Origin: Streptacidiphilus sp. P02-A3a
GTDB lineage: Bacteria; Actinomycetota; Actinomycetes; Streptomycetales; Streptomycetaceae
NCBI RefSeq assembly: GCF_014084105.1
Contig: NZ_CP048289.1
Coordinates: 3,915,922 to 3,979,921, forward strand
Direction: 5' to 3'
DNA length: 64,000 bases
The first letter of the stretch is position 1. Each line of letters opens with the position of its first letter. The position numbers were made by a program, and so were the translations under genes. The notes under the pieces were generated by a model. The model worked only from the letters and a program-made list of their open reading frames with translations. It searched no databases and was not told the origin of the DNA. Positions 23-35,948 of this stretch are shown here, piece by piece.

Positions 23-2377
<2,355 letters not shown>

Positions 2378-2489: not shown

Positions 2490-5453
2490 TCAGGGCGCGG
2501 CGACGATGCCGAAGGACGCCAGCCGCAGCCCGTCGTGCAGGGTCAGCCGCAGGTCCTGGACACCGCGCGGGCCGTCCGGCAGCGGGCCGCTGACGGTGGT
2601 CCAGGCGAAGCGGTCGCCGGTGCCGGGAACGGCGATCCGGGTGACCGGCGCGCCCTCGCCGCACTGGACGAACAGGTGGGACCCACCGGGCGTAGCCGGT
2701 GACACCTCGGCGGTGAACCGGAGCGGACCGGACCCGTCGGGGCCGAGGTCGACCGAGCGGTAGCGCAGCGAGCCGACGGCCGCGCCCGGCGCGGTGGTGA
2801 CCGCGTCGCCGTGGTCGCGGTGGGCGGCGGTCAGGGTGATCGCGGCGCAGTCGTCGAAGTCGGCGGCCTCGACCCGGCGGCCGAGCACCGCGCGCGGCGC
2901 GGGGGCCGGGCCGGTGACGGTGAGCGGCGCGACCTGGGTGGGTTCCTCGGCGGAGCGGCCGACCAGCAGCTCGTAGCGGCCGGGGTCGACGGTGAACGCG
3001 CCGGTGGCGACGTCCCAGTGGGCGAGGGCGGCAGCGGGGAGGGTGAAGCTCACCGTCCGGGTCTCGCCGGGGGCCAGTGTCAGCTTGTGGAAGTCCACCA
3101 GCTTCAGCCGCGGCGCCCGGTAGCGCGCGGCGTGGGCCCGGGCGTACAGCTGCACCGTCTCGCTGCCGCCGCGGGCACCGCTGTTGCTGATCTCGACGGT
3201 GGCCGTCAACGAGCCGTCCTGGGGCAGTTCGGCGCGGGACAGCCGCAGGCCGGTGTGGGTGAACTCGGTGTACGACAGGCCGTGGCCGAAGGGGTAGAGC
3301 GGCGCGGCGGCGTGGTACTGGTACGTCCAGCCGCCCTGGATGATGTCGTAGTCGAGCCGTTCCGGAAGCTCGTCGTCGGCCCGGTACCAGGTCTGCGGCA
3401 GCCGTCCGCCGGGGTTGGCGTCGCCGAGCAGCACGGCGGCGAGCGCCCGCCCGGTCTCCTGGCCGCCGTGCGAGGTCCACAGCACGGCGGGCAGGTGCCG
3501 CTGCGCCCAGTCGACGGCGTAGGGGTAGCTGCTCATGACGACCAGGACGGTGTCCGGGCAGGCCGCGGCGACGGCGCGGAGCAGCGCCTGCTGCGCCTCG
3601 GGCAGGTCGGTGGACTCGCGGTCCTGGGTCTCGCGGCCGTTGATGTGCGGGTCGTTGCCGAGGACGACGACGGCGGTCCCGGCCGCGCCGGCGGCGGCCA
3701 CGGCCTCGGCCAGGCCGTCCCGCAGCACGGTGCGGGTCCAGCGCTCGGCCTGCCCGGGGGTGTCCGCGTCGACCCGGACCAGGCCGGTGGCCGGGTCGAC
3801 GGTGGCGTACTTGCCGCTGTGGACGTTGCGCAGCAGCTCGGCGCCGTCGGGTCCGGCTTCGAGACGGAAGGTCTCGTGCACGTCCCAGCCGTTGGGCTGG
3901 ACCTGGTCGGCGGCCAGGGTCAGGTCGGCGTCCTTGAGGCTGACGTAGCGTCCGGTACGGGCGTTGCGCAGGGTCAGCACGCCGCCGCCCCAGTCGAACA
4001 GGTCGAGCGCGCCGTCGTCCGGGTCGGCCGCGGTGTCCGGCCCGGCCGTGCCGGGACGGGCGTGCATCGGTCCGGCCGGGTCGGCGCCGGGGACGGCCAG
4101 GGCCGCGCCGGTGGAGGCGGCCCGCAGCTCGATCCGGTCGACGCCCTCGGTCCGGACCACCTCGCCGCCGTGCCCGTCCAGGGCCCCGGCGAGGCCGTCG
4201 GCGACGGTGAACCGGTACGGCATGGTGCCGCTGTACCAGTCCTCGAACAGCGAGTCGGCGAGCGGGCCGACCACGGCCACGCCCCGGCGCTGGGCGGCGG
4301 GGTCGAGCGGCAGCAGGCCGCGGTCGTTCTTCAGCAGCACCATCGACTCGGTGGCGGCGCGCCGGGCGAGGTCGCGGTGCTCGGGGCAGTCGACCACCGC
4401 CCAGTCGACGGCGGCGTAGGGGTCGAGCTCGGGGTCGAACTCGCCCAGGCGGAAGCGTATCGACAGCTGCCGTCGCACGGCCCGGTCGATGTCCGCCTCG
4501 GTGAGCAGGCCCCGGTCCAGGGCGGCGCTGATCCGGCCGGTGGTGACCCGGCTGTCCTCGGCGTGGTCGGTGAAGCTGTCGACGCCCGCCCGCAGCGCGG
4601 CGGCGTGGGACTCGGCGTGGTCCGGGTAGTAGCGCTGCGGATCGACCAGGTTGGACGGCGCCTCGGCGTCGCTGCAGACGAACAGGTCGTGCCCGGTGGG
4701 CGCGGCCCAGCGGCGCAGTTCGCTCTCGATCAGCGGACTGACGTGGCACGGGCGGCCGTTGACCAGGTTGTAGGCGGGCATCACGCCGGTCGCCGAGCCG
4801 GAGGCGATGGCGGTGCGGAAGGCCGCCAGGTCGTACTCGTGCAGCACCCGGGGGCGCAGCCCGGAGGAGGTGGTGCAGCGGTCGTCCTCGTTGTTGTAGG
4901 CGAGGAAGTGCTTGAGCACCGGGGCGGTGCGCAGGTAGAACGGGTGGTCCCCGGCCAGGCCGCGGCAGAAGCTGTCCGCGAGCCGGGCGGAGAGCAGCGG
5001 GTCCTCGGAGTAGCCCTCCTCGTTGCGGCCCCAGCGCGGGTCGCGCAGCAGGTTCACCACCGGTGCCCAGGCCTGCAGGCTGGACCGGCCCTCGCCGATG
5101 GCGGGCGGCCGGTGGTGGTGGTAGGCCCGCTGCTCGGTACCGGTGGCGGCGGCCACCTGCCGCAGCAGTTCCTCGTCCCAGGTCGCGGCCAGCCCCACGG
5201 CCTGCGGGAAGACGGTCGCCGGGCCGAGCCAGGCGACGCCGTGCAGGGCCTCGGTGCCGGTGCGGAAGGGGCCGACACCCAGCCTGGGCACGGCGGCCGA
5301 GTACTGGTGCAGCATCGCGATCCGCTCCTCGACGGTGAGCCGGGCGAGCAGGTCCGCGACCCGCTCGGCGAGCGGCAGCGCGGCGTCGCGGAAGCGGAGC
5401 GGGCCGGACGGGTCTGCGGCTCGCTGGTCTGCGGACGCGGAGGCGGTACTCAC
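2490..5453 (-). CDS. GH3 family beta-glucosidase/beta-xylosidase with beta-trefoil-like insert and C-terminal CBM-like domain
   Basis: This 987-residue protein belongs to glycoside hydrolase family 3, retaining exo-beta-glycosidases that release glucose or xylose from non-reducing ends. The (alpha/beta)8 domain carries the nucleophile candidate D262 (CSDAEAP). The second domain has the conserved block around E608 (RETQDRES), the likely acid/base region. Between them, at about residues 485-575, sits an extra segment with two repeats (LRNARTGRYVSL and LLRNVHSGKYATV) resembling a fascin/ricin-type beta-trefoil. A fibronectin-III-like domain follows, then about 125 residues starting EAADFDDC that look like a CBM6/35-type module. 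No signal peptide is seen. I chose the GTG at 5453, preceded by AAGGGG; an ORF continues 234 bases upstream but its R/P-rich translation looks non-coding. It is probably controlled by the operator at 5666-5678. The family is certain; the substrate (xyloglucan backbone glucose) is inferred from context. Confidence 0.9.
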   Translation of the reverse strand: MSTASASADQRAADPSGPLRFRDAALPLAERVADLLARLTVEERIAMLHQYSAAVPRLGVGPFRTGTEALHGVAWLGPATVFPQAVGLAATWDEELLRQVAAATGTEQRAYHHHRPPAIGEGRSSLQAWAPVVNLLRDPRWGRNEEGYSEDPLLSARLADSFCRGLAGDHPFYLRTAPVLKHFLAYNNEDDRCTTSSGLRPRVLHEYDLAAFRTAIASGSATGVMPAYNLVNGRPCHVSPLIESELRRWAAPTGHDLFVCSDAEAPSNLVDPQRYYPDHAESHAAALRAGVDSFTDHAEDSRVTTGRISAALDRGLLTEADIDRAVRRQLSIRFRLGEFDPELDPYAAVDWAVVDCPEHRDLARRAATESMVLLKNDRGLLPLDPAAQRRGVAVVGPLADSLFEDWYSGTMPYRFTVADGLAGALDGHGGEVVRTEGVDRIELRAASTGAALAVPGADPAGPMHARPGTAGPDTAADPDDGALDLFDWGGGVLTLRNARTGRYVSLKDADLTLAADQVQPNGWDVHETFRLEAGPDGAELLRNVHSGKYATVDPATGLVRVDADTPGQAERWTRTVLRDGLAEAVAAAGAAGTAVVVLGNDPHINGRETQDRESTDLPEAQQALLRAVAAACPDTVLVVMSSYPYAVDWAQRHLPAVLWTSHGGQETGRALAAVLLGDANPGGRLPQTWYRADDELPERLDYDIIQGGWTYQYHAAAPLYPFGHGLSYTEFTHTGLRLSRAELPQDGSLTATVEISNSGARGGSETVQLYARAHAARYRAPRLKLVDFHKLTLAPGETRTVSFTLPAAALAHWDVATGAFTVDPGRYELLVGRSAEEPTQVAPLTVTGPAPAPRAVLGRRVEAADFDDCAAITLTAAHRDHGDAVTTAPGAAVGSLRYRSVDLGPDGSGPLRFTAEVSPATPGGSHLFVQCGEGAPVTRIAVPGTGDRFAWTTVSGPLPDGPRGVQDLRLTLHDGLRLASFGIVAAP

Positions 5454-5574
5454 CTGGGGAACCCCTTGGGACGAGGGACGGATCGGAACAGGCACGGCTG
5501 GACGGCCGGGGCGCGGGCGCGGGTGACGGAGCGCGGCGGGCCGGGAGCGGCCGCGGTGCGGGCTCGGGCGCCAA

Positions 5575-5657
5575 GCGGTGCGGGACGCGGTGCGGCGAAG
5601 TGGTGCGGCGGTGCGGTGCGGCGGTGCGGTGCGGTGCGGTGCGGCGATGCGGTGCGA
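5575..5657. repeat. GGTGC/CGGTG low-complexity tract in the GH3 5' leader
   Basis: Units of GGTGC and CGGTGC recur, with an uninterrupted run of GGTGC pentamers near 5626-5645 and degenerate copies on both sides. The tract lies between the GH3 promoter candidate and the GTG start, so it would be transcribed as a C-rich leader. Unit number may vary between isolates. Confidence 0.6.
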
Positions 5658-5665
5658 GGCGTTGG

Positions 5666-5678
5666 TGAAGCGTTTCGA
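5666..5678. promoter_or_regulatory. LacI-type operator, imperfect copy (GH3 side)
   Basis: TGAAGCGTTTCGA differs from the perfect palindrome at 5906-5919 at only two positions over the shared span. It lies immediately downstream of the GH3 promoter candidate (5679-5706), where a bound repressor would block transcription start. LacI-family proteins typically bind palindromes with a central CG, as here. Confidence 0.65.
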
Positions 5679-5706
5679 AAGTGACACGGTGAACAGCGGG
5701 TGTCAA
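5679..5706 (-). promoter_or_regulatory. promoter candidate for GH3/GH95
   Basis: On the minus strand a perfect TTGACA (forward 5701-5706) is followed after 16 bases by TCACTT (forward 5679-5684), a weak -10. The -35 box is exact, the -10 is not, and the operator overlaps the expected start. This leaves a leader of roughly 220 bases before the GTG. Confidence 0.5.
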
Positions 5707-5866
5707 CCGCTGTCCACCGTTGCCGACCGTAGCGCGGCGGGGTGCCGCGGCTCCTCGATCCAGGTTCGCATACGTGCCAACCCACGTGCTACAGGCCAGA
5801 AGTGAAGGGACAGCCGGGAAGTGGCGGCTGTGGCGGGGGATGGCCGGAGGTATTTTGTTCATCCCC

Positions 5867-5895
5867 TTGTCGAATCGGTAACGCGTGGTTAGTCT
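5867..5895 (+). promoter_or_regulatory. promoter candidate for the importer operon
   Basis: TTGTCG (5867-5872), a 17-base spacer and TAGTCT (5890-5895) fit the actinobacterial SigA/HrdB pattern. The predicted start near 5902 sits at the edge of the perfect operator at 5906-5919, which is consistent with repression. Confidence 0.5.
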
Positions 5896-5905
5896 CGCCG
5901 CAACA

Positions 5906-5919
5906 TCGAAGCGCTTCGA
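5906..5919. promoter_or_regulatory. LacI-type operator, perfect palindrome (importer side)
   Basis: TCGAAGCGCTTCGA is a perfect 14-bp palindrome with a central CG, the usual form of LacI-family operators. It lies just after the -10 candidate and 99 bases before the lipoprotein gene. A near copy is present on the other side of the same control region. Confidence 0.75.
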
Positions 5920-6017
5920 CGCATCGACCCGAACTTCGCTGTGCCACCGCCGTGCCGCCTACCCAGCGGCCCCAGCGGTGATGACCGGATCCTCAACGAC
6001 GAAGGGCCGCAACGACC

Positions 6018-7697
6018 ATGAGCATCGAGATGAACCGCAGATCAGTGCTGCGCACCGCCATCGGCGTGTCCGGGGCGGCGGCCATGGCGCCGCTGCTCAG
6101 CGCCTGCGGTACCGGCGGCTCGGTGAAGGCGGGCGGGAACACCAAGGCGGGCCTGGCCGCGACCCTCCCGACGCACGTGCCGAACACCTCGATCAAGGCG
6201 GACATCCCCACGGTGTCCTTCGCCAACGGCGCGTCCACCGACCCGGGTTTCCTCAGCTACCCGGCGAACCCGGTCGCCACCGTCAGCGGCATCCCCGGCT
6301 CCGGCGGCAGCTACACGGCGGTCACCCCGCTCTGGGGCACCATCCCCTCGCCCGGCAACCAGTTCTACCAGGCGGTGAACAAGGCCCTGGGCACCACGCT
6401 GACCATGCAGCCGGCCAACGGCGTCACCTACAACACCGCCATCCCGACGCTCACCGCCGCGCAGAAGCTCCCCGACTGGGTCCAGCTGCCGACCTGGTGG
6501 AACGCCGCGTTCGAGGTCGGCGAGCTGGCCGGGACGCAACTCGCGGACCTGACCCCGTACCTGGCGGGCGACAAGATCAAGGCGTACCCGAACCTGGCGG
6601 CGCTGCCGACCGGCGCCTGGGAGTGCGGGGTCTGGGACAACAAGCTCTACGGGATCCCCTCCTTCGCCTCCGGCACCAACTTCGCCGGGGCGCTGTACTA
6701 CCGGGAGGACGTCTTCGCGACCAAGGGCATCCAGGCGAGCAGCATCACCTCCGCCGCCGACATGATGGCGCTCGGCAAGGAACTCACCGACGCCAAGGCC
6801 GGGGTCTGGGCCTTCGACGACATCTGGACCTACTTCTCCCCGACCTTCGGCGTGCCCAGCAAGTTCCGGGTGGACGGCGGCAAGCTGGTGCACAGGTACG
6901 AGACCGCGGAGATCCTGGAAGCACTCAACTGGCACTACCAGCTTGCCAAGTCCGGCTACATGCACCCGAGCGCGCTGGCCGGGGACAGCAACGACGCCAA
7001 GACCCGGTTCTACGGCGGCAAGGTGCTGGTCACCGGTGACGGAACCGGCGCCTGGAACCTCGCTGACGCACAGTCAGGAGCCGCCGCCAACAAGGCGTAC
7101 CGCCGGGGCGCGCTGCCGGTGATCGCCGCCGACGGCAGCTCCACCCCGTCGATCTACCTCGGCTCCTCCGCCAGCGAGATGAGCTACCTCAGCGCCCGGC
7201 TCAAGCCGGCGCAGATCAAGGAGCTGCTGGCGGTCGCCAACTACCTTGCCGCACCATGGGGTTCGCTGGAGTACACGCTGATCAACTACGGCGTCGAGGG
7301 TGTCGACTACACCATGGTCGACGGCGTCCCCACGGCCACCGCCACCGGGCAGAAGAACGTGCAGCAGCAGACCTACCCGTTCCTGGCCACCTGCCAGTAC
7401 ACGGTGACCAACCCCGGCGCCCCGCAGATCACCCAGGACTACTGCGCCTGGGTCGCGGCCGCCGCCAAGTACGCCTACAAGCCGGTGTTCTGGAACATGA
7501 ACATCGTGGTCCCGGGCCAGTACGCCACCGCCGACGCCGCGCAGGCCGTCGAGGACACCATCACCTCGATCTACCACGGCCTCAAGCCGGTCTCCGCGTT
7601 CCAGGACGCCGTCAGCACCTGGAAGAAGAACGGCGGCGACGCGGTCGTGGCCTGGTACCAGAGCAACATCCTGGACAAGTTCGGCTCCGGCCAGTAA
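6018..7697 (+). CDS. sugar ABC transporter substrate-binding lipoprotein (LplA-like, CUT1)
   Basis: This 559-residue extracellular solute-binding protein would capture oligosaccharides and hand them to the two permeases encoded next. The N-terminus has a twin-arginine pair (R7-R8) and a lipobox LLSAC with the lipidated cysteine at C30, so it should be membrane-anchored outside the cell. Its length is well above the 420-450 residues usual for CUT1 binding proteins and matches the long LplA/YtcQ type, which typically pairs with LplB- and YtcP-like permeases as it does here. AAGGG lies 11 bases before the ATG; a second ATG at 6030 (MNRRS) is a possible alternative start. It is the first gene of the rightward operon behind the perfect operator. 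Ligand is inferred as a xyloglucan oligosaccharide from the surrounding hydrolases. Confidence 0.88.
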   Translation: MSIEMNRRSVLRTAIGVSGAAAMAPLLSACGTGGSVKAGGNTKAGLAATLPTHVPNTSIKADIPTVSFANGASTDPGFLSYPANPVATVSGIPGSGGSYTAVTPLWGTIPSPGNQFYQAVNKALGTTLTMQPANGVTYNTAIPTLTAAQKLPDWVQLPTWWNAAFEVGELAGTQLADLTPYLAGDKIKAYPNLAALPTGAWECGVWDNKLYGIPSFASGTNFAGALYYREDVFATKGIQASSITSAADMMALGKELTDAKAGVWAFDDIWTYFSPTFGVPSKFRVDGGKLVHRYETAEILEALNWHYQLAKSGYMHPSALAGDSNDAKTRFYGGKVLVTGDGTGAWNLADAQSGAAANKAYRRGALPVIAADGSSTPSIYLGSSASEMSYLSARLKPAQIKELLAVANYLAAPWGSLEYTLINYGVEGVDYTMVDGVPTATATGQKNVQQQTYPFLATCQYTVTNPGAPQITQDYCAWVAAAAKYAYKPVFWNMNIVVPGQYATADAAQAVEDTITSIYHGLKPVSAFQDAVSTWKKNGGDAVVAWYQSNILDKFGSGQ

Positions 7698-7753: not shown

Positions 7754-8761
7754 GTGGCCGCGACAGTGACCACGGAGGGCACCCAGTCCCCGGCACGGGT
7801 GCCCCGTCGACTCATCAGGCGCGGTCGACGCGCGCGGCCGGACCGGGAACCGAAGCTCAACTGGCGGATCCGGCTGCGCCGGGACAAGTCGCTGATCATC
7901 ATGACGCTGCCGGCCGTGGTCCTGCTGCTGGTCTTCAGCTACCTGCCGATCCTGGGGAACATCACCGCCTTCCAGTACTACGACCCGCTGGTGGGCATCT
8001 GGAACAGCACCTGGATCGGGCTGCAGAACTTCCAACAGCTGTTCAACGACCCGCTGTTCTGGGAGGCGATGAACAACACCCTGGCCATCAGCGCCATCCA
8101 GCTGGTGCTGTTCTTCCCCATCCCGATCATGCTGGCACTGCTGCTCAACTCGGTGCTCAGCCAACGGCTCAGGTCGGTGATCCAGTCCGTCGCACTGCTG
8201 CCGCACTTCTTCTCCTGGGTGCTGGTGATCACGCTGTTCCAGCAGATGATCGGCGGAGCCGGGCTGCTCAACCAGTTCCTGCGCAACCACGACATCGGCG
8301 TGTGGAACATCATGACCGACCCGACGACCTTCAAACTGCTGGTCACCTCCCAGGTGATCTGGAAGGACGCGGGCTGGGGCATCATCGTGTTCCTGGCCGC
8401 GCTCTCGGCGATCGACCAGAACCTGTACGAGGCCGCCGCCGTGGACGGCGCCGGGCGCTGGCGCCGGATGTGGCACATCACCCTGCCCGGGATCAAGGGC
8501 ACCATCGTGCTGATGCTGGTGCTGCGCCTCGGCAACATCCTCAACGTCGGCTTCGAGCAGCTGCTGATCCAGCGTCAGGCCGTGGGCCACGACGCCGCCG
8601 ACGTCCTCGACACCTTCTCGTACTACTACGGCATCGCGACCAACAACTACGGCTACGGGGCCGCGGCGGGCATCTTCAAGAGCGTCATCTCGCTGGTCCT
8701 GGTCTACGGGGCCAACAAGCTGGCGCACCTCTTCGGCGAGGACGGTCTGTACCGCTCATGA
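7754..8761 (+). CDS. sugar ABC transporter permease (LplB-like, CUT1)
   Basis: This 335-residue inner-membrane permease forms half of the transport channel. After a basic N-terminal tail of about 45 residues come a first hydrophobic helix (MTLPAVVLLLVFSYLPIL) and further membrane segments. The cytoplasmic EAA loop, EAAAVDGAGRWRRMWHITLP, contacts the ATPase. I chose GTG 7754 because AGGAGG lies 4 bases upstream (7744-7749). The open frame extends back to 7256 but is only a shadow of the binding-protein gene there. Its stop overlaps the next start (ATGA), showing translational coupling. Confidence 0.9.
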   Translation: MAATVTTEGTQSPARVPRRLIRRGRRARPDREPKLNWRIRLRRDKSLIIMTLPAVVLLLVFSYLPILGNITAFQYYDPLVGIWNSTWIGLQNFQQLFNDPLFWEAMNNTLAISAIQLVLFFPIPIMLALLLNSVLSQRLRSVIQSVALLPHFFSWVLVITLFQQMIGGAGLLNQFLRNHDIGVWNIMTDPTTFKLLVTSQVIWKDAGWGIIVFLAALSAIDQNLYEAAAVDGAGRWRRMWHITLPGIKGTIVLMLVLRLGNILNVGFEQLLIQRQAVGHDAADVLDTFSYYYGIATNNYGYGAAAGIFKSVISLVLVYGANKLAHLFGEDGLYRS

Positions 8762-9693
8762 GCACACTCAGCCTGGGCGGCACGCGCCGCCGCAACTCCG
8801 ACCGGCCGATCTGGGAGGAACCGCCGACCGCCGCCGGACAGGCGGCCAAGGGCACGGTACTGACCCTGATCGTGCTGGTGATCCTGGTCCCCATGTACTC
8901 GGTGGTGGTCACCAGCCTGTCCAACCAGGCCTCCATCAACGACGCGGGCGGGATGGTGCTGGTCCCGCACGGCCTGACGCTGAGCGCCTACCGGACCATC
9001 CTGTCCGGCGGCCCGGTCGCCCGCGCGCTGATCGTCAGCCTGGCGATCACACTGGTGGGCACGGTGTTCTCGATGGTGGTCTCGGTGCTCTGCGCCTACG
9101 GGCTCTCCCGCTCCCGGTCGCTGGGCCACCGGTTCGTGCTGATGCTGCTGATCGTCACCATGTTCGTCAGCGCCGGTCTCATCCCGACCTACCTGGTGGT
9201 GGTCGGCCTCGGCGGCTACGACAGCTACTGGGCGCTGATCATCCCGAGCTCGGTCAGCGTGTTCAACATCCTGGTGCTGCGCTCCTTCTACTCCGGGACG
9301 GCGTCCGAACTGATCGACGCCGCGCGGATGGACGGGGCCAACGAATGGCGCATCCTGTGGTCGGTGGTACTGCCGACCTCGCGCGCGGTCACCGCCGTGG
9401 TCACCCTGTTCTACGCGGTCGGCTACTGGAACTCCTTCTTCAACGTCATGCTCTACATGCCGGTGGACAGCCAGAAGTGGCCGTTGCAGTACGTGCTGTA
9501 CGAGTACGTCAACCTCGGGATGAACATGCCCGGGCAGACCAACTCCGGCTTCGGCAGCGGGCATTCGCAGACCGCGCCGCTGTCGCTGCAGATGGCCGTG
9601 GTGGTGCTGACCCTGATCCCGGTGCTGATCGCCTTCCCCTTCCTGCAGAAGCACCTCGGCAAGGGCATGCTCACCGGCGCCATCAAGGGCTGA
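8758..9693 (+). CDS. sugar ABC transporter permease (YtcP-like, CUT1)
   Basis: This 311-residue protein is the second permease subunit. It has a first membrane helix near residues 37-58 (TLIVLVILVPMYSVVVTSL) and an EAA-type loop (DAARMDGANEWRILWSVVLP) for ATPase contact. Its start overlaps the stop of the preceding permease by four bases. No ATP-binding subunit is encoded anywhere in the operon. In Streptomyces, several CUT1 importers share the general ATPase MsiK encoded elsewhere, and this system probably does too. Confidence 0.9.
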   Translation: MSTLSLGGTRRRNSDRPIWEEPPTAAGQAAKGTVLTLIVLVILVPMYSVVVTSLSNQASINDAGGMVLVPHGLTLSAYRTILSGGPVARALIVSLAITLVGTVFSMVVSVLCAYGLSRSRSLGHRFVLMLLIVTMFVSAGLIPTYLVVVGLGGYDSYWALIIPSSVSVFNILVLRSFYSGTASELIDAARMDGANEWRILWSVVLPTSRAVTAVVTLFYAVGYWNSFFNVMLYMPVDSQKWPLQYVLYEYVNLGMNMPGQTNSGFGSGHSQTAPLSLQMAVVVLTLIPVLIAFPFLQKHLGKGMLTGAIKG

Positions 9694-9741: not shown

Positions 9742-12018
9742 ATGCGCGTCTCCGCAACGAAGAACGCCGCAACGAAGAAGAGAACGCTGCTCACCGCGGC
9801 CGTCTGCCTGGGCCTGCTGGGCGGCACCCTGGCCGCCGCCCCGGCGGCCTCGGCCGCGCCCGCCGGTACCGGCGGCCCCACCTGGTCCAACGTGAAGGTC
9901 GGCGGCGGCGGTTTCGTCACCGGCGTGGTGTTCAACCAGTCCCAGCCGGGACTGGCCTACCTGCGCACCGACATCGGCGGCCTCTACCGCTGGAACGCGG
10001 CGCGGCGGACCTGGGTCCCGCTGCTGGACTGGACCGGCTTCAACGACTGGAACCAGCTCGGCGTCGAGTCCGTGGCCACCTCCCCGGAGCACCCGAACCG
10101 GGTGTGGGCGGCGGTCGGCGAGTACGCGGACAGCTGGAACAAGGGGAACAACGGCGCGATCCTGCGGTCCGACGACTACGGCAAGCACTGGAAGGCCACC
10201 CAGCTGCCGATCCAGCTGGGCTCCAACGACCAGGGCCGGGACTCCGGCGAGCGGCTGGCGGTCGACCCCCGGGACGACGACATCCTCTACTTCGCCTCGC
10301 GCGACAACGGGCTGTGGAAGTCCACCGACGGCGGCGTGACCTGGGCGCAGGACCCGGCCTTCCCCGACCTGGGCAGCGACAGCGACGCCGGGTTGCAGTT
10401 CGTCACCTTCGACCAGACCCAGGGCCGCCGCGGCGACCCCAGCCAGCACCTCGTCGTCGGCGACGCGGACACCAGCGCGCTCTACCAGTCCACCGACGGC
10501 GGAGCGACCTGGAGCACGGTCGGCGGCGGCCCGGGGACCATCCCGATCAAGGCCCAGTTCTCCGGGACCGGCCAGCTGTACGTCGTCTACGACACCTCCA
10601 CCGGCCCGTACGCGATGGGCGCGGGCGCGGTCTACCGCTACGCCGGCGGCAGCGGGGGACAGGGCGGCAGCGGGGCACACGGTGTCGGCGCGGCCACCGA
10701 CATCACCCCGGTCTCCTCCACCTTCGGCTACGACGGCCTGGCGGTGGACCCGGAGCACCCGGACACCGTGATCGTCTCCACCAACGACCGCTGGTACCCG
10801 GTGGACACCCTGTACCGCTCCACCGACGGCGGCCAGGACTGGAGCGACGTCTCCGCCTCCACCACGCTCGACGTCTCCAGCACGCCGTACCTCGACTTCG
10901 GCGCCGCCGCGCCCAAGTTCGGCTGGTGGATCGGTACCGTCGCGATCGACCCGTTCGACTCGAACCACGTGGTCTACGGGACCGGCTCGACCCTGTTCGG
11001 CACCGACAACCTCGACGCGATGGACCACGGCGGCACCGTCGACTTCTCCTCCGAGGCGGTCAACGGGGTCGAGGAGAACGCGGTCAACGACCTGGTCGTG
11101 CCGAACCTCAGGCAGAGCCCCTGCCGGGTGGTCAGCGTGATGTCCGACGTGGGCGGCTTCTGCCACACCTCGCTCACCGCCTCGCCGTCCACCGGCATGT
11201 CCACCGACCCGCTGCTGAGCAGCGGCGACAGCGTGGCGCAGAGCGCCGACGGCGGGCTGATGGCCCGGGTCGGCACCGGCGGCTCGGACGGTTCGGACGG
11301 CGGCTGCTCCACCGACGGCGGCGTGACCTGGACGCCGTTCACCGACCCCGCCGCGATGACCAGCGGCGGCGGCCAGGTCGCGGTCTCCGCCGACGGCGGC
11401 GTCATCCTGTGGTCCGCCGGGGACGGCTCCGGCGTCTACCGCTCCACGGACCACGGCCGGAGCTGGACCACCGCCACCGGCCTCGCCGCCGGGCCGCGGC
11501 CGGTCGCCGACCCCGGGAACCCCGACGACTTCTACGCGCTTGACCCGGACGCCGGGGTGGTCTACCGCTCCACCGACGGCGGCCGGACCTTCACCGCCCG
11601 GGCCACCGGCCTGCCGACCGGCGGCAGCGAGCAGCTGCGGGCCACCCCCGGGACGTCCGGCGACCTGTGGCTGAGCGCGCAGGACAGCGGACTGCTGCAC
11701 TCCACCGACGGCGGCGCGACCTGGACCAGGACCACGGCCGCGACCTCCTCCTACACCCTCGGCTTCGGCAAGGCCGCCCCGGGCTCGCGGCAGCCGACGA
11801 TGTACCAGGTCGGCGTGGTGGGCGGGACCACCGGGATCTTCATGTCCACCGACGGCGCCGCCTCCTGGACCCGGATCAACACGAACGCGCAGAACTGGGG
11901 CTCAACCGGGCAGATCATCACCGGCGACCCCTACCATTTCGGACGGGTCTACCTCGGCACCAACGGGCGCGGCATCCAGACCGTCGACGTGTCCCGCCCC
12001 GCGCTCGGCGGGGAGTGA
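9742..12018 (+). CDS. secreted GH74 xyloglucanase (endo-beta-1,4-glucanase acting on xyloglucan)
   Basis: This 758-residue secreted enzyme belongs to GH74, inverting enzymes built from two seven-bladed propellers that cleave the xyloglucan backbone. A signal peptide (about residues 1-39, ending ASA) directs export. At least eight Asp-box-like motifs are visible, such as KSTDGGVTW, RSTDGGQDW and HSTDGGATW. The paired catalytic aspartates of the family are candidates at D77 (RTDIGG) and D469 (MSDVGGF). No cellulose-binding module follows, so only the catalytic unit is present. GAGAGG lies 9 bases before the ATG, and the gene follows the permease after 48 bases, probably in the same operon. Family and export are secure. 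Whether it acts in endo mode or on chain ends cannot be read from sequence alone. Confidence 0.92.
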   Translation: MRVSATKNAATKKRTLLTAAVCLGLLGGTLAAAPAASAAPAGTGGPTWSNVKVGGGGFVTGVVFNQSQPGLAYLRTDIGGLYRWNAARRTWVPLLDWTGFNDWNQLGVESVATSPEHPNRVWAAVGEYADSWNKGNNGAILRSDDYGKHWKATQLPIQLGSNDQGRDSGERLAVDPRDDDILYFASRDNGLWKSTDGGVTWAQDPAFPDLGSDSDAGLQFVTFDQTQGRRGDPSQHLVVGDADTSALYQSTDGGATWSTVGGGPGTIPIKAQFSGTGQLYVVYDTSTGPYAMGAGAVYRYAGGSGGQGGSGAHGVGAATDITPVSSTFGYDGLAVDPEHPDTVIVSTNDRWYPVDTLYRSTDGGQDWSDVSASTTLDVSSTPYLDFGAAAPKFGWWIGTVAIDPFDSNHVVYGTGSTLFGTDNLDAMDHGGTVDFSSEAVNGVEENAVNDLVVPNLRQSPCRVVSVMSDVGGFCHTSLTASPSTGMSTDPLLSSGDSVAQSADGGLMARVGTGGSDGSDGGCSTDGGVTWTPFTDPAAMTSGGGQVAVSADGGVILWSAGDGSGVYRSTDHGRSWTTATGLAAGPRPVADPGNPDDFYALDPDAGVVYRSTDGGRTFTARATGLPTGGSEQLRATPGTSGDLWLSAQDSGLLHSTDGGATWTRTTAATSSYTLGFGKAAPGSRQPTMYQVGVVGGTTGIFMSTDGAASWTRINTNAQNWGSTGQIITGDPYHFGRVYLGTNGRGIQTVDVSRPALGGE

Positions 12019-12135: not shown

Positions 12136-13146
12136 ATGGTGACACTCGCCGAAGTCGCCCGTCAGGCGGGCGTCTCGCCCAGTACCGTCAGCTACGTCCT
12201 GAGCGGCAAGCGGACGATCTCCGGACCCACCCGGGCCCGGGTCGAGCGCGCCATCAGCGACCTGGGCTACCACCCCAACGCGGGCGCGCGCGCCCTCGCC
12301 GGAAAGCGCTCGCACATCATCGCGCTGGTGGTGCCGCTGCGCACGGACGTCTACGTCCCGATCATGATGGAGATCGCCATCGCGGTCACCATGTCCGCCC
12401 GCCAGTACGGCTACGACGTCCTGCTGATCACCAACGACGAGGGCCCCGAAGGGGTGCGCCGGGTGGCGGCCAGCGGACTGGCCGACGGCGTGGTGCTGAT
12501 GGACGTCGAACTGCAGGACGAACGGATCCCGGTGCTGCGGGAGCTCGGCACCCACGCCGCCACCATCGGGCTGCCCGCCGACTCCCACGGCATGGCCTGC
12601 GTCGACCACGACTTCGCCGCGGCGGGCGCGCTCTGCGCCGACCACCTGGCCGACCTCGGCCACCGCGACGTCGCCTTCATCGGCTACGCGCCGCAGGTCT
12701 ACCAGCGGCACGCCGGATACGCCGAGCGCACCCTGCTCGGGTTCCGGGAACGCTCCGAGGAGCGCGGGCTGCGGATCCTGCACCGGCCCTGCGAGGGCAG
12801 CTACGAGAGCACCGCGGGCGCGCTCGCCCGGATCCTGGAGGACCGTCCGGCCACCACCGGCTTCGTGGTCCAGAACGAGGGCGCGCTCGGACCACTGCTC
12901 AGCCTGCTGCGCACCACCGGGCGGATCGTCCCCGAGGACGCCTCGGTGGTCGCGCTCTGCCCCGAGCAGCTGGCCGAGCAGAACTCGCCCCGGCTCACCG
13001 CGGTCACCGGCCCGGCCCAGGAACTCGGCCGCCAGGCCGTGGAACTGGTGATGGCCCGGATCAACGGTGACCCGGCCCCCGAGGTCACCCTGCTCACGCC
13101 GGTGCTGACCGTCCGCGAGAGCAGCGGCCCGGCCCCGCACCGGTAG
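12136..13146 (+). CDS. LacI-family transcriptional regulator of the locus
   Basis: This 336-residue protein has a LacI-type helix-turn-helix at residues 3-25 (LAEVARQAGVSPSTVSYVL), a hinge reading NAGARALAGKRS and a periplasmic-binding-protein-like sugar-sensing domain. Such proteins usually repress until a sugar ligand releases them from DNA. GAGGGGGAG lies 7 bases before the ATG. It sits between the GH74 and GH31 genes, and the two LacI-type palindromes in the divergent region at 5666-5919 are its most likely targets. No obvious copy of the operator was found in front of this gene itself. The effector is probably a xyloglucan breakdown product; this is inference. Confidence 0.92.
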   Translation: MVTLAEVARQAGVSPSTVSYVLSGKRTISGPTRARVERAISDLGYHPNAGARALAGKRSHIIALVVPLRTDVYVPIMMEIAIAVTMSARQYGYDVLLITNDEGPEGVRRVAASGLADGVVLMDVELQDERIPVLRELGTHAATIGLPADSHGMACVDHDFAAAGALCADHLADLGHRDVAFIGYAPQVYQRHAGYAERTLLGFRERSEERGLRILHRPCEGSYESTAGALARILEDRPATTGFVVQNEGALGPLLSLLRTTGRIVPEDASVVALCPEQLAEQNSPRLTAVTGPAQELGRQAVELVMARINGDPAPEVTLLTPVLTVRESSGPAPHR

Positions 13147-13210: not shown

Positions 13211-15259
13211 ATGCCCAACCACATCCACGACCTCGGCGGAGCCCTGGAGTGGCGCGCCCGAGGCGAGACCCTGCGGGTCGAGCCCTGGGGCCGCGACTCG
13301 GTGCGGGTGCGGGCCACCCCCGGCGGCGCGCTGCTGCCGGACCTGCCCGGCGCGCTGCTCGACGCCGACCCGGCCACCGCCGGAACCGCCGGAACCGCTG
13401 AGATCAGCATCGAGGGCAACACCGCGACCCTGGTCAACGGCGCGATAACGGTCCGCCTCGACGGCAACGCCGCCGACGCGAGCGACCCGCAACTGCACCC
13501 CGCCGCCGGTCGGCTGACCTTCCTGAACACCGCCGACGGCAGCGAACTGCTGGCCGAGGAGCCGCACCACTTCTGGTGGCCCGGCCCGCGCCTCTACACC
13601 GCCACCGGGAACGGCTACCACCGGCTGGAGCAGCGCTTCCGCGCCTACCCCGGCGAGCGGCTGTACGGCCTGGGCCAGCACACGCACGGCCTGCTCGACC
13701 AGAAGGGCGCGGTGATCGACCTGGTCCAGCGCAACGCCGAGGTGAGCATCCCGTTCCTGCTCTCCGACCGGGGCTACGGCCTGCTCTGGAACAGCCCGGC
13801 GATCGGCCGGGTCGAACTCGCCGAGACCGGAACCCGCTGGGTCGCCGACAGCGCACGGCAGTTGGACTACTGGGTGACCGCGGGCCGCCCGGCCGACGTA
13901 CTGCGCCGCTACGCGGACGCGACCGGGCACAGCCCGATGCTGCCCGACTGGGCGGCCGGCTTCTGGCAGTGCAAACTGCGCTACCGCACCCAGGAGGAGC
14001 TGCTGGAGGTCGCCCGCGAGTACCGGCGCCGCGACCTGCCGCTGGACGTGATCGTCGCCGACTTCTTCCACTGGACCCACCTGGGGGAGTGGCGGTTCGA
14101 CCCGGAGGAGTGGCCCGACCCGGCCGCCATGGTCGCCGAACTCGACCGACTCGGCGTCAAGTTGATGGTCTCGGTGTGGCCCTCGGTGAGCCCGCTGTCG
14201 GAGAACTTCCACGAACTGCTGAACCAGGGCCACCTGATCAACACCGAGTACGGCCCGGTCGCCCACGCCGACTGGCCGGACAAGGGCCTGGACGCCTACT
14301 CGGCGCAGGTCGCGTTCTACGACGCGACCAACCCCGACGCCCGGGCCTTCGTCTGGGAGCGGCTCCGGCGCAACTACCTGGACCTGGGCATCAAGGTGTG
14401 GTGGCTGGACGCCTGCGAGCCCGAGCTGAAGCCCGGCTACCCGGCCAACCTGCGCTACCACGCCGGTCCCGGCCTGGAGGTCGGCAACCTGTACCCGCGC
14501 GAGAACGCCCGCATGATCCACGAGGGGATGACCGCCGCCGGGGAGAGCGAGGTCGTCTCGCTGAACCGCTCGTCCTGGGCCGGTGCGCAGCGCTACGGCG
14601 CGGCGCTGTGGTCCGGCGACATCGGCACGGACTTCGCCAGCCTGCGCGCCCAGATCAAGGCCGGGCTGAACGTCATGGTCTCCGGCATCCCCTGGTGGAC
14701 CACCGACATCGGCGGCTTCCACGGCGGCGACCCGGACGACCCCGGCTACCGCGAGGTGCTGGTCCGCTGGTTCCAGTACGGCGCGTTCTGCCCGCTGTTC
14801 CGGCTGCACGGCTTCCGCGGCCCGGAGCAGCGGCTCGAACCCGCGATGACCGGCCTGCCGAACGAGGTCTGGAGCTACGGCGACGAGGCCTACCGGATCC
14901 TCACCTCCTACCTGCGGCTGCGCGAACGGCTGCGGCCCTACCTGCTGCGGCAGCTGGCCGAGGCCGCCGAGCAGGGGCTGCCGCCGATGCGCCCGCTGTT
15001 CGTCGAGTTCCCCGACGACCCCGCGGCCTGGACCGTCGACGACGCCTTCCTGCTCGGCCCGGACCTGCTGGTCGCCCCGGTCACCGAGGCGGGCGCGCGC
15101 CGCCGCGAGGTCTACCTGCCGTCGGGCGCGGACTGGACCGACGCCTGGACCGGCGCGGTGCACCCCGGCGGCAGCCGGACGGCCGTGGACGCCCCGCTGG
15201 ACCGGATCCCGCTGTTCCTGCGCGACGGCGCGGAACTGCCGATCCAGCAGGAGGCCTGA
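13211..15259 (+). CDS. GH31 family alpha-xylosidase (YicI-like)
   Basis: This 682-residue retaining glycosidase belongs to GH31. The nucleophile is candidate D400 in WLDACEPE, and the acid/base is D470 in WSGDIGTD. The WLD..EP form, with a glutamate three residues after the nucleophile, is the version seen in YicI-type alpha-xylosidases that remove non-reducing alpha-1,6-xylose from xyloglucan oligosaccharides. There is no signal peptide, so it should act in the cytoplasm. TGGAG lies 7 bases before the ATG. The TGA stop shares its last base with the ATG of the GH42 gene (TGATG), so the two are translationally coupled. Xylosidase rather than glucosidase activity is supported by the GH74 and GH95 neighbours as well as the motif. 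Confidence 0.88.
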   Translation: MPNHIHDLGGALEWRARGETLRVEPWGRDSVRVRATPGGALLPDLPGALLDADPATAGTAGTAEISIEGNTATLVNGAITVRLDGNAADASDPQLHPAAGRLTFLNTADGSELLAEEPHHFWWPGPRLYTATGNGYHRLEQRFRAYPGERLYGLGQHTHGLLDQKGAVIDLVQRNAEVSIPFLLSDRGYGLLWNSPAIGRVELAETGTRWVADSARQLDYWVTAGRPADVLRRYADATGHSPMLPDWAAGFWQCKLRYRTQEELLEVAREYRRRDLPLDVIVADFFHWTHLGEWRFDPEEWPDPAAMVAELDRLGVKLMVSVWPSVSPLSENFHELLNQGHLINTEYGPVAHADWPDKGLDAYSAQVAFYDATNPDARAFVWERLRRNYLDLGIKVWWLDACEPELKPGYPANLRYHAGPGLEVGNLYPRENARMIHEGMTAAGESEVVSLNRSSWAGAQRYGAALWSGDIGTDFASLRAQIKAGLNVMVSGIPWWTTDIGGFHGGDPDDPGYREVLVRWFQYGAFCPLFRLHGFRGPEQRLEPAMTGLPNEVWSYGDEAYRILTSYLRLRERLRPYLLRQLAEAAEQGLPPMRPLFVEFPDDPAAWTVDDAFLLGPDLLVAPVTEAGARRREVYLPSGADWTDAWTGAVHPGGSRTAVDAPLDRIPLFLRDGAELPIQQEA

Positions 15260-17262
15260 TGGGCGGGCTGCTCGGCCCCGGCCTGGCCTTCGGCGGCGAC
15301 TACAACCCGGAGCAGTGGGACGAGCCGGTCTGGCGGGAGGACGACGCCCTGATGCGGCAGGCCGGGGTGAACCTGGCCACCGTCGGGGTGTTCTCCTGGG
15401 CGCTGCTGGAGCCGGAGGAGGGGCACTACTCGTTCGACTGGCTCGACGCCCAACTGGACCGGCTGCACGCCAACGGCGTCCGGGTGGACCTGGCCACGCC
15501 CACGGCCTCGCCACCGCCCTGGTTCACCCTGGCCCACCCGGAGGCGATGCCGGTCACCGCCGACGGCACCCGGCTCACCCACGGCAGCCGCGACACCTAC
15601 TGCCTGGCCGCTCCGGCGTACCGGCGGGCCGCCGCCCGGATCGCCGGGGCGCTGGCCGAGCGCTACGCCGGGCATCCGGCGCTGGCGATGTGGCACGTCC
15701 ACAACGAGTACGCGACGGTCTGCTACTGCGAGCAGTCCGCGGCGGCGTTCCGGGTCTGGCTGCGGGCCCGGCACGGATCCCTGGACGAGCTCAACTCGGC
15801 CTGGGGAACCGCCTTCTGGGGCCAGCGCTACGGCTCCTGGGAGCAGATCACGCCGCCCCGCGCCACCCAGTGGCACCAGAACCCGGGCCACCTGCTGGAC
15901 TTCCGCCGGTTCTGGTCGGACGAGGCACTGGCCGCGTACACCGAGCAGCGCGACGCGATCCGCCGCCACAGCGGCCCGCGGACCCCGGTCACCACCAACC
16001 TGATGCTGCCCGGCTACCAGGTGATCGACCTGTGGGCGTTCGGGCGCGAGGTCGACTTCGTTGGCATCGACCACTACCCGGACGCCCCCGGCGTCGACGC
16101 GGGCGCGGACACCGCCTTCGGCGCGGACCGGGCCCGCTCCTTCGGCGGCGGCAAACCGTGGCTGCTGATCGAGCAGGGCACCAACACCGTCCACACCGCT
16201 GAGCGGACCCTCGCCAAGGAGCCCGGCGACCTGCTCCGGCACACCCTCGGCCACCTCGGGCGCGGCTCCGACGGCGCACTGTTCTTCCAGTGGCGGCAGT
16301 CCAAGGCGGGCGCCGAGCTGTGGCACTCGGCGATGGTGCCGCACGCCGGTCCGGACACCCGGATCCACCGCGAGGTGGTCGCCCTCGGCGCGGCGCTGGA
16401 GCGGCTGGCCGAGGTCGCCGGGTCCACGGTGGCCGCCGAGGCGGCGGTGCTCTGGGACGCCGACGCCTGGTGGGCGCTGGACACCAACGGCATGCCCTCC
16501 GCCGACCTCGACTACCACGCCACCGTCCGGCGCGCGCACCGCGCCCTGTGGGAGGCCGGGGTCACCGCCGACTTCGCGCACCCCGAGCACGACCTGTCGC
16601 GGTACCGGCTGGTCCTCGCGCCCAGCCTGTACCTGCTCTCCGACGCGGGCGCGGCCTCGCTGCGCCGCTACGTGGAGGGCGGCGGCACGCTGCTGGTGCA
16701 GTACTTCAGCGGGGTGGTCGACGCCCGGCACCAGGTCCGCACCGGCGGCTACCCGGGCGCGCTGCGCGAGGTGCTGGGCATCCGCGGCGAGGAGTTCCGC
16801 CCGCTGGCCACCGGAGCCACGGCCGCCCTGTCCGACGGCTCCTCGGGCACGGTGTGGAGCGAGGACCTGCGGACCGAGGGCGCGCGGGCGGTGCTGCGCT
16901 ACGCCTCGGGGTCACTGGCCGGCCGACCCGCGCTCACCCGCCACGCGTTCGGCGCGGGCACCGGCTGGTACCTGTCCACCCGGCTGGACGACGAACGCTA
17001 CGCGGCGTTGCTGGCGCGGGTCCTGGAGGAGTGCGGGGTGGCCGCCGAGGTACCGGGGCTGCCGCCGGGGGTGGAGGCGGTCCGCCGCCGGGGCCCGCTC
17101 GACGGGCGGGACACCGGCTGGCTGTTCGTGCTCAACCACCTGGACACCCCGGTCCAGCTGCCCGGGATCACCGCCGGGCGGGATCTGCTCACCGGCGCGG
17201 ACGTGCCCGGCGACGGCCTGCGGCTCGCCCCGGGCGGTGTCGCGGTGCTGCGCGAGCCGTAG
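15259..17262 (+). CDS. GH42 family beta-galactosidase
   Basis: This 667-residue retaining beta-galactosidase begins with the GH42 signature GGDYNPEQW. E150 (HVHNEYAT) is the likely acid/base and E305 (LLIEQGTN) the likely nucleophile. The middle third is the trimerisation domain, with a short C-terminal beta domain after about residue 600. It lacks a signal peptide. In this locus its probable job is to remove the beta-1,2-galactose that caps xylose in xyloglucan side chains, after fucose removal and before alpha-xylosidase action. It overlaps the GH31 stop by one base. It is the last gene of the rightward series and is followed by a GC-rich hairpin. Confidence 0.9.
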   Translation: MGGLLGPGLAFGGDYNPEQWDEPVWREDDALMRQAGVNLATVGVFSWALLEPEEGHYSFDWLDAQLDRLHANGVRVDLATPTASPPPWFTLAHPEAMPVTADGTRLTHGSRDTYCLAAPAYRRAAARIAGALAERYAGHPALAMWHVHNEYATVCYCEQSAAAFRVWLRARHGSLDELNSAWGTAFWGQRYGSWEQITPPRATQWHQNPGHLLDFRRFWSDEALAAYTEQRDAIRRHSGPRTPVTTNLMLPGYQVIDLWAFGREVDFVGIDHYPDAPGVDAGADTAFGADRARSFGGGKPWLLIEQGTNTVHTAERTLAKEPGDLLRHTLGHLGRGSDGALFFQWRQSKAGAELWHSAMVPHAGPDTRIHREVVALGAALERLAEVAGSTVAAEAAVLWDADAWWALDTNGMPSADLDYHATVRRAHRALWEAGVTADFAHPEHDLSRYRLVLAPSLYLLSDAGAASLRRYVEGGGTLLVQYFSGVVDARHQVRTGGYPGALREVLGIRGEEFRPLATGATAALSDGSSGTVWSEDLRTEGARAVLRYASGSLAGRPALTRHAFGAGTGWYLSTRLDDERYAALLARVLEECGVAAEVPGLPPGVEAVRRRGPLDGRDTGWLFVLNHLDTPVQLPGITAGRDLLTGADVPGDGLRLAPGGVAVLREP

Positions 17263-17913: not shown

Positions 17914-20900
17914 TCAGCCGACCTGCTCCGGGAGCGACACCTCCCGGGCGATGGCCGACACCGTGGTCAGCGTCGGCGCCGCGATCACCCGGCCGAGGTG
18001 GGACATGAACGCGGTCTCCCGCTGCGGCGGCAGGACCTCCCGGCAGACCCCGGCCAGCATCGTCAGCAGCGACAGCGAGTCCCCGCCCAGCTGGTGGAAG
18101 TCGGTGTGCGCGTCGATCCGGTGCGGCTCGACACCCAGGATGCCCGACCAGATCGAGGCGACCTTGGCCTCCACCGGGTCCCGGTCCGGATCCGCCGCGC
18201 CGTCGGCCGGGCCGCCGTCCGCCCGCTCGGCGAAGGGGTCGGGCAGCGAGCGCACGTCCACCTTCCCGGCGACGCTGTAGGGGATCCGCTCCACCACGAA
18301 GGTCGCCGCCGGAACCATGTACGCGGGCAGCCGCTCGGCGGCGTGCGCCTGCAACTCCGCGACCTCGACCGCGCCGTTCACCAGCACGTAGCCGTAGAGC
18401 CCCTTGCCGGAGCCGTCCGGGCGGCTGCGGGCCACCACCACGGCCCGGTCCACCCGCGGATGCTCCTCCAGGGTGTTCGCCACCTCGGCCGGTTCGACCC
18501 GGTGACCGCGCACCTTCACCTGGTCGTCGATCCGGCCCAGGAACTCAAGGCCGCCGTCCGGCAGCCGCCGGGCCAGGTCCCCGGTCCGGTACACCCTGGT
18601 CCCGTCGGCCAGCCGGGGGAAGCGCTCGGCGTCCAGGTCGGGGCGGCCCAGGTACCCCCGGGCCAGCTGCACCCCGGCCAGGTACATCTCGCCCACCTCG
18701 CCGGTCGGCACGAACCGCCGGTTCGGGTCGAGCAGGTGCACCTGGGTGTTGTGGGCGGGCACGCCGATCGGCACGGCCGCGAGCTCGGCGTCCCGCACCG
18801 GGTCGAAGGTGTAGGCGGTGCAGCCGATGGTGGCCTCGGTCGGGCCGTACTCGTTGATGATCCGGCAGTCCGGGCCGAACATCTGCTGCGCCCGCGCGGC
18901 GACCTCTACCCGCAGCTGCTCACCGACGACGACGATGCTGCGGAAGCCGGTCGGTTCGACGTCCAGCCGACCGATCAGCTCCAGGTGCGACGGGGTGAGG
19001 TTGAGCATGGTCGCGCCGGACTCCTCCAGCAGCCGGCGCAGCGTCAGGTGGGTGGGCTGGTCCTGGACCAGCACCACCGTCCCGCCGGTGATCAGCGGCA
19101 GGAAGATCGAGGTCCCGGACACGTCGAAGGAGAGCGAGGTCAGCAGCGGCAGCCGGGTCCCGGCGTCGACGCCGAACTCCTCGATGCCCCAGTGCAGGTA
19201 GTTGAGCAGGCTGCCGTGCTCGATCTGGACGCCCTTGGGCCGCCCGGTGGACCCCGACGTGTACAGGACGTAGGCCAGGTCGTCCGGCCGCGACTCGGCG
19301 TCCACCGAGGGGCCGGGGTCGGCGGCGGTCCCGAGCAGGTCGTCCAGGGCGATCGGCGCGCAGCTGTCCGGGCAGTGCTCGCGGCCCTGCTGCCCGGCCT
19401 CCACCAGGCAGAACCGGGCGCCCGAGTCGGACAGCAGACCGGCCAGCCGGGCGTCCGGATGCCGCACCTCCAGCGGCAGGTACCCGGCTCCGGCGCGGAG
19501 GATCCCCCAGATCGCGGCGATCGCCGCCGGAGTCCGCTCGGCGAGCACACCCACCACCTCACCGCGGTCCACGCCCCGGGCGCGCAGCCCGGCCGCGACC
19601 GCGTCCGCGCGGCGGCTCAGCTCACGGTAGGTCACCTCGCCCTGGGGGCCGCTCAGCGCGACCGCGTCCGGGGTGAGCTCGACCTGGTCGCGGAACAGCT
19701 GGAGCAGCGAGCGCGGGGAGGCCGGCTCCCGCTCGGTGCGGTTCGCCGCCGGATCGCGGTCGGCCCGCGGCGACAGCGCCTCCACCACCGAGTCGAGCAG
19801 CGCGTCCATCCGCTCGGCGGCACCCGGCACGTTCCGCCAGGTGAGCACGATCTCGGTGCGGCCGGAGGTCTCGATGACGTCGATGCCGGGAGGCGCCGAG
19901 GGGCCCGAACCACCCAGGTTGTACAGGGTGGTGGCGCGGAAGGAGTCGGCGCTGTAGTCCGCCGGGTCGGTGAAGCCGAGGTTGGTGACGAAGGCCGTGC
20001 CCATGAAGAGCTGCTTCTTCACCGCCGCTGCCTCCATGCCGTCGGCGAGCACCCGCAGCACCGGCCGTGGCACCCGCAGCAGCCAGGAACCGGTGCGCAG
20101 GGCGATCTCCCGGTTCTCGGACAGCCCCGTCAGCAGGTCCTGGTGGACCTCCTCCCAGCCGGTGCCCGGCGCCACGTCGAGGTCGACGGCCAGCGACAGC
20201 CAGCCGGTGGACCGCAGGTCGGGCTGGTGCCGACGCAGGTCGACCGGGACGAAGAAGCGCGCCTTCGCCTCCGGCAGCGAGTCCGGCTCGGTGGCCGCGG
20301 CGACGGCGGCGATCACCTTGGCGGTGACCGCGGCCTGGGTGCCCTCGATCGTCCGCCGCCGCCAGATCAGGCCGTGCCGCCCGGAGGTCAGCGGCGCCAT
20401 CAGCGTGGGCCACTCCGACTTGCCCTGGCCGCGCGGGATCGGCGGCAGGCCCTCGGGCAGCAGCTGCCGCAGGAACTCGTCACTGTTCCAGGCCGAGGGA
20501 GCACCCAGCGGCTGCTCACCGCGCAGTACTCGGAACACGTCCGCCGCCCAGACCAGTACGCCCCGGGCGTCGGTCACCCCGTGGAAGCCGCGGAAGACCA
20601 GCCGCAGCGGCTGCCCGGGACCGCCGGGCACGAACAGCACCTCGCAGGTGGGGCCGCCGTCGTTGAGCGTGGTCTGCAGCGCGGGATCGGCCAGCAGGTC
20701 CTGTCCGTCCGGCAGCCGCACCACGCGCACCTCCGGGGCGACACCGCTGTCCACCCAGCTCCGCCGCCGACGGCGCAGCCGGGTACCGGGGCACACCTCG
20801 GCGACCGCGGCCACGGCCGCGGCCAGGGCCTCGGCGCTGAGCTCCCCCTCGCCCTCGAACACGTGCTGGATGACGTTCGGCACGCCCATCCCGGCGTAGA

Positions 20901-20961: not shown

Positions 20962-21197
20962 GGTGTCTCCAGGGCCGGGTGCCAGGTACCGGGGGTGATT
21001 GTGGACGTCTGCCGCCGTTGGCATGTGGACTTCCGGTGGCTGCGAAGTGAAAAGGAGTCTTCGGCTGTTCGGAGGTGGTCGGAGATGTTCAATCCGGCGG
21101 CCGATGGGCCATGCTGGGGCCGAATCGTCCGGGTGCGCGCCGGAGAGATGCGAGCCTGGCTGTTTCCTTTCCCGTACGACGGAGGAAGTGGGCTGAC
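20962..21197. promoter_or_regulatory. divergent intergenic region between the NRPS and the small-protein gene
   Basis: These 236 bases separate two divergent genes and must hold both promoters, but I could not identify convincing -35/-10 pairs. GGAGG at 21181-21185 precedes the rightward gene. No coding frame with actinobacterial codon use is visible beyond a possible N-terminal extension of the NRPS to 21024. Confidence 0.4.
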
Positions 21198-21443: not shown

Positions 21444-21457
21444 GTCCGAGCACCACA

Positions 21458-21776: not shown

Positions 21777-35948
<14,172 letters not shown>

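Follow-up and report, generated by a model that had tools for sequence, protein, structure and literature searches.

Proposed twin palindromic operators over divergent promoter candidates of a probable xyloglucan gene cluster in Streptacidiphilus sp. P02-A3a, and their predicted LacI-family repressor

The window, the whole 64,000-nucleotide stretch of the Streptacidiphilus sp. P02-A3a chromosome analyzed here, contains two palindromes placed over a pair of divergent promoter candidates. It is probable (approximately 0.88) that these are operators of a LacI-family dimer encoded at 12136-13146, which would keep both promoters blocked until it is released by a sugar derived from xyloglucan. The sites, their placement, their conservation, their co-occurrence with the protein and the surrounding gene content can all be seen in the sequence. 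As a twin-operator switch the arrangement is real, well conserved, and ordinary in kind.

Both sites lie in a gap of 564 bp, bounded by the GTG start of a GH3 glycosidase gene (5453, minus strand) and the ATG of a putative solute-binding-protein gene (6018, plus strand). The first-pass annotation had proposed twin sites on divergent promoters with centers about 240 bp apart; both were found where it had put them, and the centers are separated by 241 bp. The elements of the gap are as follows.

5665-5678, no strand: left operator, GTGAAGCGTTTCGA, with TGAAGCGTTTCGA at 5666-5678 and a core, GAAGCGTTTC (5667-5676), that carries one mismatch
5679-5706, minus strand: leftward promoter candidate, TTGACA-16-TCACTT; an alternative 17-bp spacer gives CACTTT
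5867-5895, plus strand: rightward promoter candidate, TTGTCG-17-TAGTCT, called from sequence
5906-5919, no strand: right operator, the perfect 14-bp palindrome TCGAAGCGCTTCGA, with its core GAAGCGCTTC at 5908-5917

The right operator begins 10 bp past the -10 hexamer of the rightward promoter and the left operator abuts the -10 hexamer of the leftward promoter, so that each would cover the start region of its own promoter. Even length, a central CG, a position near a promoter start, and conservation alongside a regulator give the sites the character of LacI/GalR operators. Within the window, no operator stands directly before the lacI gene itself.

Actinomycete promoters are generally looser than the E. 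coli consensus. A strict E. coli-style consensus scan of 5454-6017 returned no promoter, and the promoter calls therefore rest on conservation. When the window is aligned with eight relatives, the CTTGT and TANTNTC columns of the right promoter and the TGTCAAC columns of the left promoter are invariant. There are 62 invariant columns in all, and 37 of them belong to the operators and the four promoter hexamers, elements that together occupy 52 of the 564 bases. Across a wider set of loci (described below; window included), all 41 spaced pairs have a TTGAC no farther than 50 bp from the left site, and in 43 of 45 rows a TTGT or TTGC precedes the right site by 28-52 bp, the two exceptions being loci with adjacent sites.

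Further features of the gap were noted. A GC-rich tandem repeat of GCGGT-like units (TRF score up to 87) occupies 5553-5656, part of the leader that separates the left operator from the GH3 gene, and the matching stretch is much shorter in one relative (L012). On the plus strand, the interval between the promoters contains one terminator-like hairpin (5825-5846; 1 against a shuffle mean of 0.3). Just 5' of the right -35 hexamer, TTTTGTTCA occurs at 5853-5861, and several relatives show, by eye, a TTTGTTCA-like block; this may be an AT-rich promoter element or the site of another regulator.

The genes on either side of the gap point to a probable substrate. They are listed below in order of position.

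23-2377, minus strand: GH95 gene (Pfam PF22124, E 1.5e-163), presumably fucosidase-type, in the same direction as the GH3 gene and downstream of it
2490-5453, minus strand: GH3 glycosidase, 987 aa, GTG start (PF00933/PF01915), first gene of the leftward operon
6018-7697, plus strand: putative lipoprotein solute-binding protein, 559 aa, so called from a lipobox-like N-terminus and its position at the head of the rightward operon
7811-8761, plus strand, start approximate: ABC permease 1 (Pfam PF00528)
8764-9693, plus strand, start approximate: ABC permease 2 (Pfam PF00528)
9742-12018, plus strand: GH74 xyloglucanase-like protein, with a secretion-signal-like N-terminus and PDB matches
12136-13146, plus strand: LacI-family repressor, 336 aa (Pfam LacI and Peripla_BP_3), proposed partner of both operators
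13211-15259, plus strand: GH31 alpha-xylosidase-like protein (top PDB match the alpha-xylosidase MeXyl31, 5zn6, E 1.4e-210)
15268-17262, plus strand: GH42 beta-galactosidase-like protein (Pfam PF02449, E 5.7e-129)

The top PDB match of the GH74 protein is 4lgn (deposited as Cellulose-binding, family II; E 1.4e-167), and PDB entries named xyloglucanase, of which there are many, match it from E 8.6e-154 (6p2o). The solute-binding-protein candidate has no Pfam or NCBIfam match at E 0.001, and no ATPase gene was seen among the named cluster genes. GH74, GH31, GH42, and GH3 families together with two permeases make up the gene set of a xyloglucan locus, and this content, with the GH95 and LacI genes, indicates that the substrate of the cluster is probably xyloglucan or its oligosaccharides. 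Beyond the sugar cluster, an NRPS-like gene (17914-21456, minus strand) and a modular polyketide-synthase-like gene encoding 4723 aa (21777-35948) were recognized by eye.

The protein encoded at 12136-13146 is a full-length member of the LacI family, with an N-terminal LacI helix-turn-helix (PF00356, 63.1 bits against a cut-off of 27) followed by a sugar-binding domain of the periplasmic type (PF13377, 100.5 bits; cut-off 26.5). Its recognition helix reads V-S-[PSA]-S-T-V-S-Y in nearly all of the loci printed. Loci of its relatives include those of Lentzea, Saccharothrix, Kutzneria, and Nonomuraea.

Binding, the dimeric state, the direction of control, read-through along the operons, and the inducer belong to the mechanism that we infer. 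In this mechanism each palindrome would be occupied by a LacI-family dimer, which would cover the start region of the adjoining promoter and block RNA polymerase there, so that two operons would be silenced together: GH3 and GH95 to the left, and to the right the genes for the binding protein, the permeases, GH74, LacI, GH31, and GH42. Because lacI sits among the rightward genes, the repressor would limit its own synthesis. Release would be brought about by a xyloglucan-derived sugar, either an imported oligosaccharide or a fragment of one.

Palindromes may also arise by chance in GC-rich intergenic DNA. A 10-bp palindrome is short, and the core with up to one mismatch occurs in the window five times, three of them elsewhere than in the gap. 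Only 1.52 copies are expected, with 2 of 100 shuffles reaching five, and the remaining two copies fall within the single 564-bp gap. Among 5000 simulated gaps (first-order; core with up to one mismatch) the mean was 0.016 sites, 1.6% had at least one, and none had two. The conservation described next makes a chance origin extremely improbable.

A set of 80 loci was gathered by similarity to the LacI protein only, operator sites playing no part in the selection. The GH3 and binding-protein genes diverge as in the window in 44 of them. In every one of these 44 divergent loci the core, with up to one mismatch, turns up in the gap or no more than 60 bp outside it, and a site stands near the binding-protein gene. 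Two or more copies are found in 42 of the loci, and 40 have a spaced pair (more than 40 bp between sites), the second site lying on the GH3 side. The exceptions are L013 and L036, where two matches near one gene are only 16 bp apart and so do not form spaced pairs, and L027 and L033, with one site each. The 44 gaps contain 86 matches in 14,496 bases (5.93 per kb), and the remainder of these same loci 95 in 881,436 (0.108 per kb). Retention of the palindromes in loci chosen by protein alone bears out, at the level of sequence comparison, the earlier designation of them as LacI-type operators.

The 36 loci without the divergent arrangement mostly place the sites elsewhere: in 28 a pair stands upstream of lacI at a distance of no more than 300 bp, ten of these loci having a further pair near a GH3 gene (by eye), and in L020, L023, L024, and L025 the binding-protein gene is preceded by at least one site. 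No operator-like site was seen near lacI or the binding-protein gene in 4 of the 80 loci, namely L014 (21 kb examined) and L007, L026, and L040, in which the sequence examined starts 347, 96, and 188 bp before lacI, respectively. Matches to TGCAGAAGCACTTC just before lacI in many loci were considered as a third operator and rejected, as by eye they fit LQKHF coding sequence at the permease C-terminus.

The association of site and protein extends to whole genomes. Of 150 genomes belonging to the same family as that of the window, 77 have a gene for a LacI relative (E 1e-60 or better) and 59 contain the exact 14-mer. The 14-mer is present in 55 of the 77 genomes with a LacI relative versus 4 of the 73 without one at this threshold (Fisher p 4.8e-18, uncorrected for relatedness), amounting to 140 copies versus 4; it is absent from 22 of the 77. 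The backward-read control pattern is found in 4/77 and 7/73 genomes, respectively. This co-occurrence supports the 12136 protein, which the first-pass annotation had put forward as the partner of the operators, in that role.

Control of the promoters might conceivably be shared with a different LacI-domain protein or with a second regulator acting in the gap. LacI-domain matches number 29 in the genome (one in a short frame) and leave room for another family member on the site, the TTTGTTCA-like block upstream of the right -35 is common to several loci, and in several Lentzea loci the same palindrome adjoins a paralogous LacI gene. We consider shared control unlikely, given that the 12136 protein is the only one of the 29 within the cluster and that its relatives, the ones compared in this way, show the genome-wide association with the motif. 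The Lentzea cases (L022 728, L028 2413, L029 2401, and L049 463) have the palindrome near the start of that paralogous second gene, a hint of cross-talk or of a duplication in which the operator was kept.

The first-pass annotation had suggested that repression might work through a DNA loop between the operators. In a looped form of repression, the same LacI-family protein would hold the operators together over 241 bp and strengthen repression of both promoters. Dimeric GalR loops DNA with HU. Spaced operator pairs are the rule (the 40 divergent loci above), and in the window and its eight nearest two-site relatives the spacings (190, 209-211, 213, 214, 232, and 241 bp) are near whole turns at 10.5 bp. 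For these nearest loci, phasing gave R 0.66 and p 0.014, rising to p 0.042 and 0.063 once similar values were collapsed. Over 12 spacing clusters, however, there is no phase preference (p 0.28); spacings among all spaced pairs, window included, range from 88 to 241 bp, with those of 88-122 bp near half turns; and a phasing figure of p 0.013, for which the period was left free and the null took no account of relatedness, is too generous. The alignment of the 12136 protein to LacI (1lbg) runs out 2 residues short of the query's end (at 334 of 336) and 28 short of that of LacI (at 332 of 360), and there is thus no LacI-type C-terminal tetramerization helix. The 78 of 80 LacI relatives with a stop in the sequence are 335-405 aa long (median 342), and by eye the last 22 residues of the eight longest relatives lack a leucine heptad. 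Each site, moreover, already covers its own promoter. Phasing is weak on these figures, and the comparisons add little to the case for a loop. Looping by the 12136 protein is possible, but we regard it as quite unlikely.

Sites away from the cluster bear on the extent of a regulon. The genome of the window, 9.33 Mb in size, contains one exact copy of the 14-mer and one copy with a single mismatch; with up to two mismatches there are 47 copies, as many as of the backward-read control (47). Such loose matches are not enriched across the genome, a point that would suit chance palindromes. Twenty exact sites in other genomes were hand-picked among the matches listed, 19 of them away from LacI relatives and one (L121) approximately 3 kb from one. 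A sugar-related gene stands beside the site in 11 of these 20 stretches, all 11 Pfam-checked: GH12 (3), GH95 (2), GH3 (3), pectinesterase (2, one with GH43 on the opposite side), and a binding-protein gene (1). A clear sugar target was not found in the other 9. Two Lentzea loci have the site before a GH12 gene, one copy with a changed base.

Within the genome of the window, the near-perfect operator TTGAAGCGCTTCGA at C1:6243362 (L085 9363-9376) lies approximately 55 bp before the gene of a CBM2 protein that is secreted-looking and has weak arabinofuranosidase similarity. This site is a candidate distal member of the regulon. The exact core is upstream of 2 of the 20 homologs of the CBM2 protein examined, that of this genome included; a homolog is present in seven LacI loci out of 80; and a different LacI gene is found 6 kb from the site. 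Other matches in this genome (L123, L125, L127, L131, L133) fall inside long open frames. A further match, GAAGCGTTTCGA (L124 1501, C1:1121525), is in the gap before a DPP IV-like peptidase gene, not a sugar gene, and may be chance.

A cellulose regulator of the CebR type, in place of the local LacI protein, might also own the sites. CebR of Streptomyces is likewise a LacI-family regulator of plant-polymer genes that acts on a 14-bp palindrome around AGCGCT, a hexamer shared with the sites described here (PMC4898821, PMC5332605, in the sections available). It differs in recognizing TGGGAGCGCTCCCA, of which degenerate TGGaAGCGCTtCCA copies are also given (PMC5332605), and in responding to cellobiose or small cello-oligosaccharides as signal (PMC4898821, PMC5332605). 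The genome analyzed here has eight exact and seven one-mismatch CebR-type sites, none of them in the window, and these form a separate set; its only GH12 match lies 233 bp after one of them. In relatives of the window, the base adjoining the GAAGC half-site is C or T, whereas CebR sites have G, and the sites follow the local LacI protein across genomes. Ownership by CebR is accordingly rejected as very unlikely, and the 12136 protein is retained as the proposed repressor. It is tempting to speculate on an actinomycete-wide system (Streptomycetaceae and others), in which an unnamed xyloglucan repressor would hold a regulon separate from that of CebR, would add GH12, GH95, GH43, and pectinesterase genes in some genomes, and in the clade of the window would have operators on one face of the DNA, with a dimer looping the promoters, perhaps with a bending protein. 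As a whole this proposal is distinctly improbable. The operator, regulator, and substrate predicted here nevertheless offer a testable set for an actinomycete plant-polymer regulon, and a scan with the motif would find predicted xyloglucan genes and set them apart from the cellulose (CebR) regulon.

In E. coli lac, a LacI tetramer acts on more than one operator. The present system is similar in having more than one operator and possible co-operation at a distance, and differs in that the 12136 protein is without the tetramer tail. The available parts of a review of hemicellulase gene control (PMC10766802) and of a paper on xyloglucan in Xanthomonas (PMC8245568) name no such regulator, and no xyloglucan LacI regulon of actinomycetes was found by title or opening of the abstract among the open-access papers searched. 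The xyloglucan cluster of Ruminiclostridium cellulolyticum, as far as the accessible text describes it, shares a GH31 alpha-xylosidase, a GH3 beta-glucosidase, a GH42 beta-galactosidase, and an ABC importer with that of the window, but has a two-component system with an AraC-like regulator and no LacI repressor (PMC4780118). Judged by description, the nearest described analog found appears to be the predicted GloR regulon of Thermotoga. GloR is a predicted local regulator of the LacI family at the Thermotoga maritima xyloglucan-oligosaccharide locus gloR<>gloEFGKL-cel74-fucAI, and its effector is stated as unknown in the portion of the paper available (PMC3750489). Both loci combine a local LacI-family regulator with an ABC importer and an intergenic operator, and the Thermotoga locus likewise includes a cel74 gene and a gene named fucAI; it belongs to another phylum, has another gene order, and also contains an operator of the cellobiose regulator CelR (PMC3750489).
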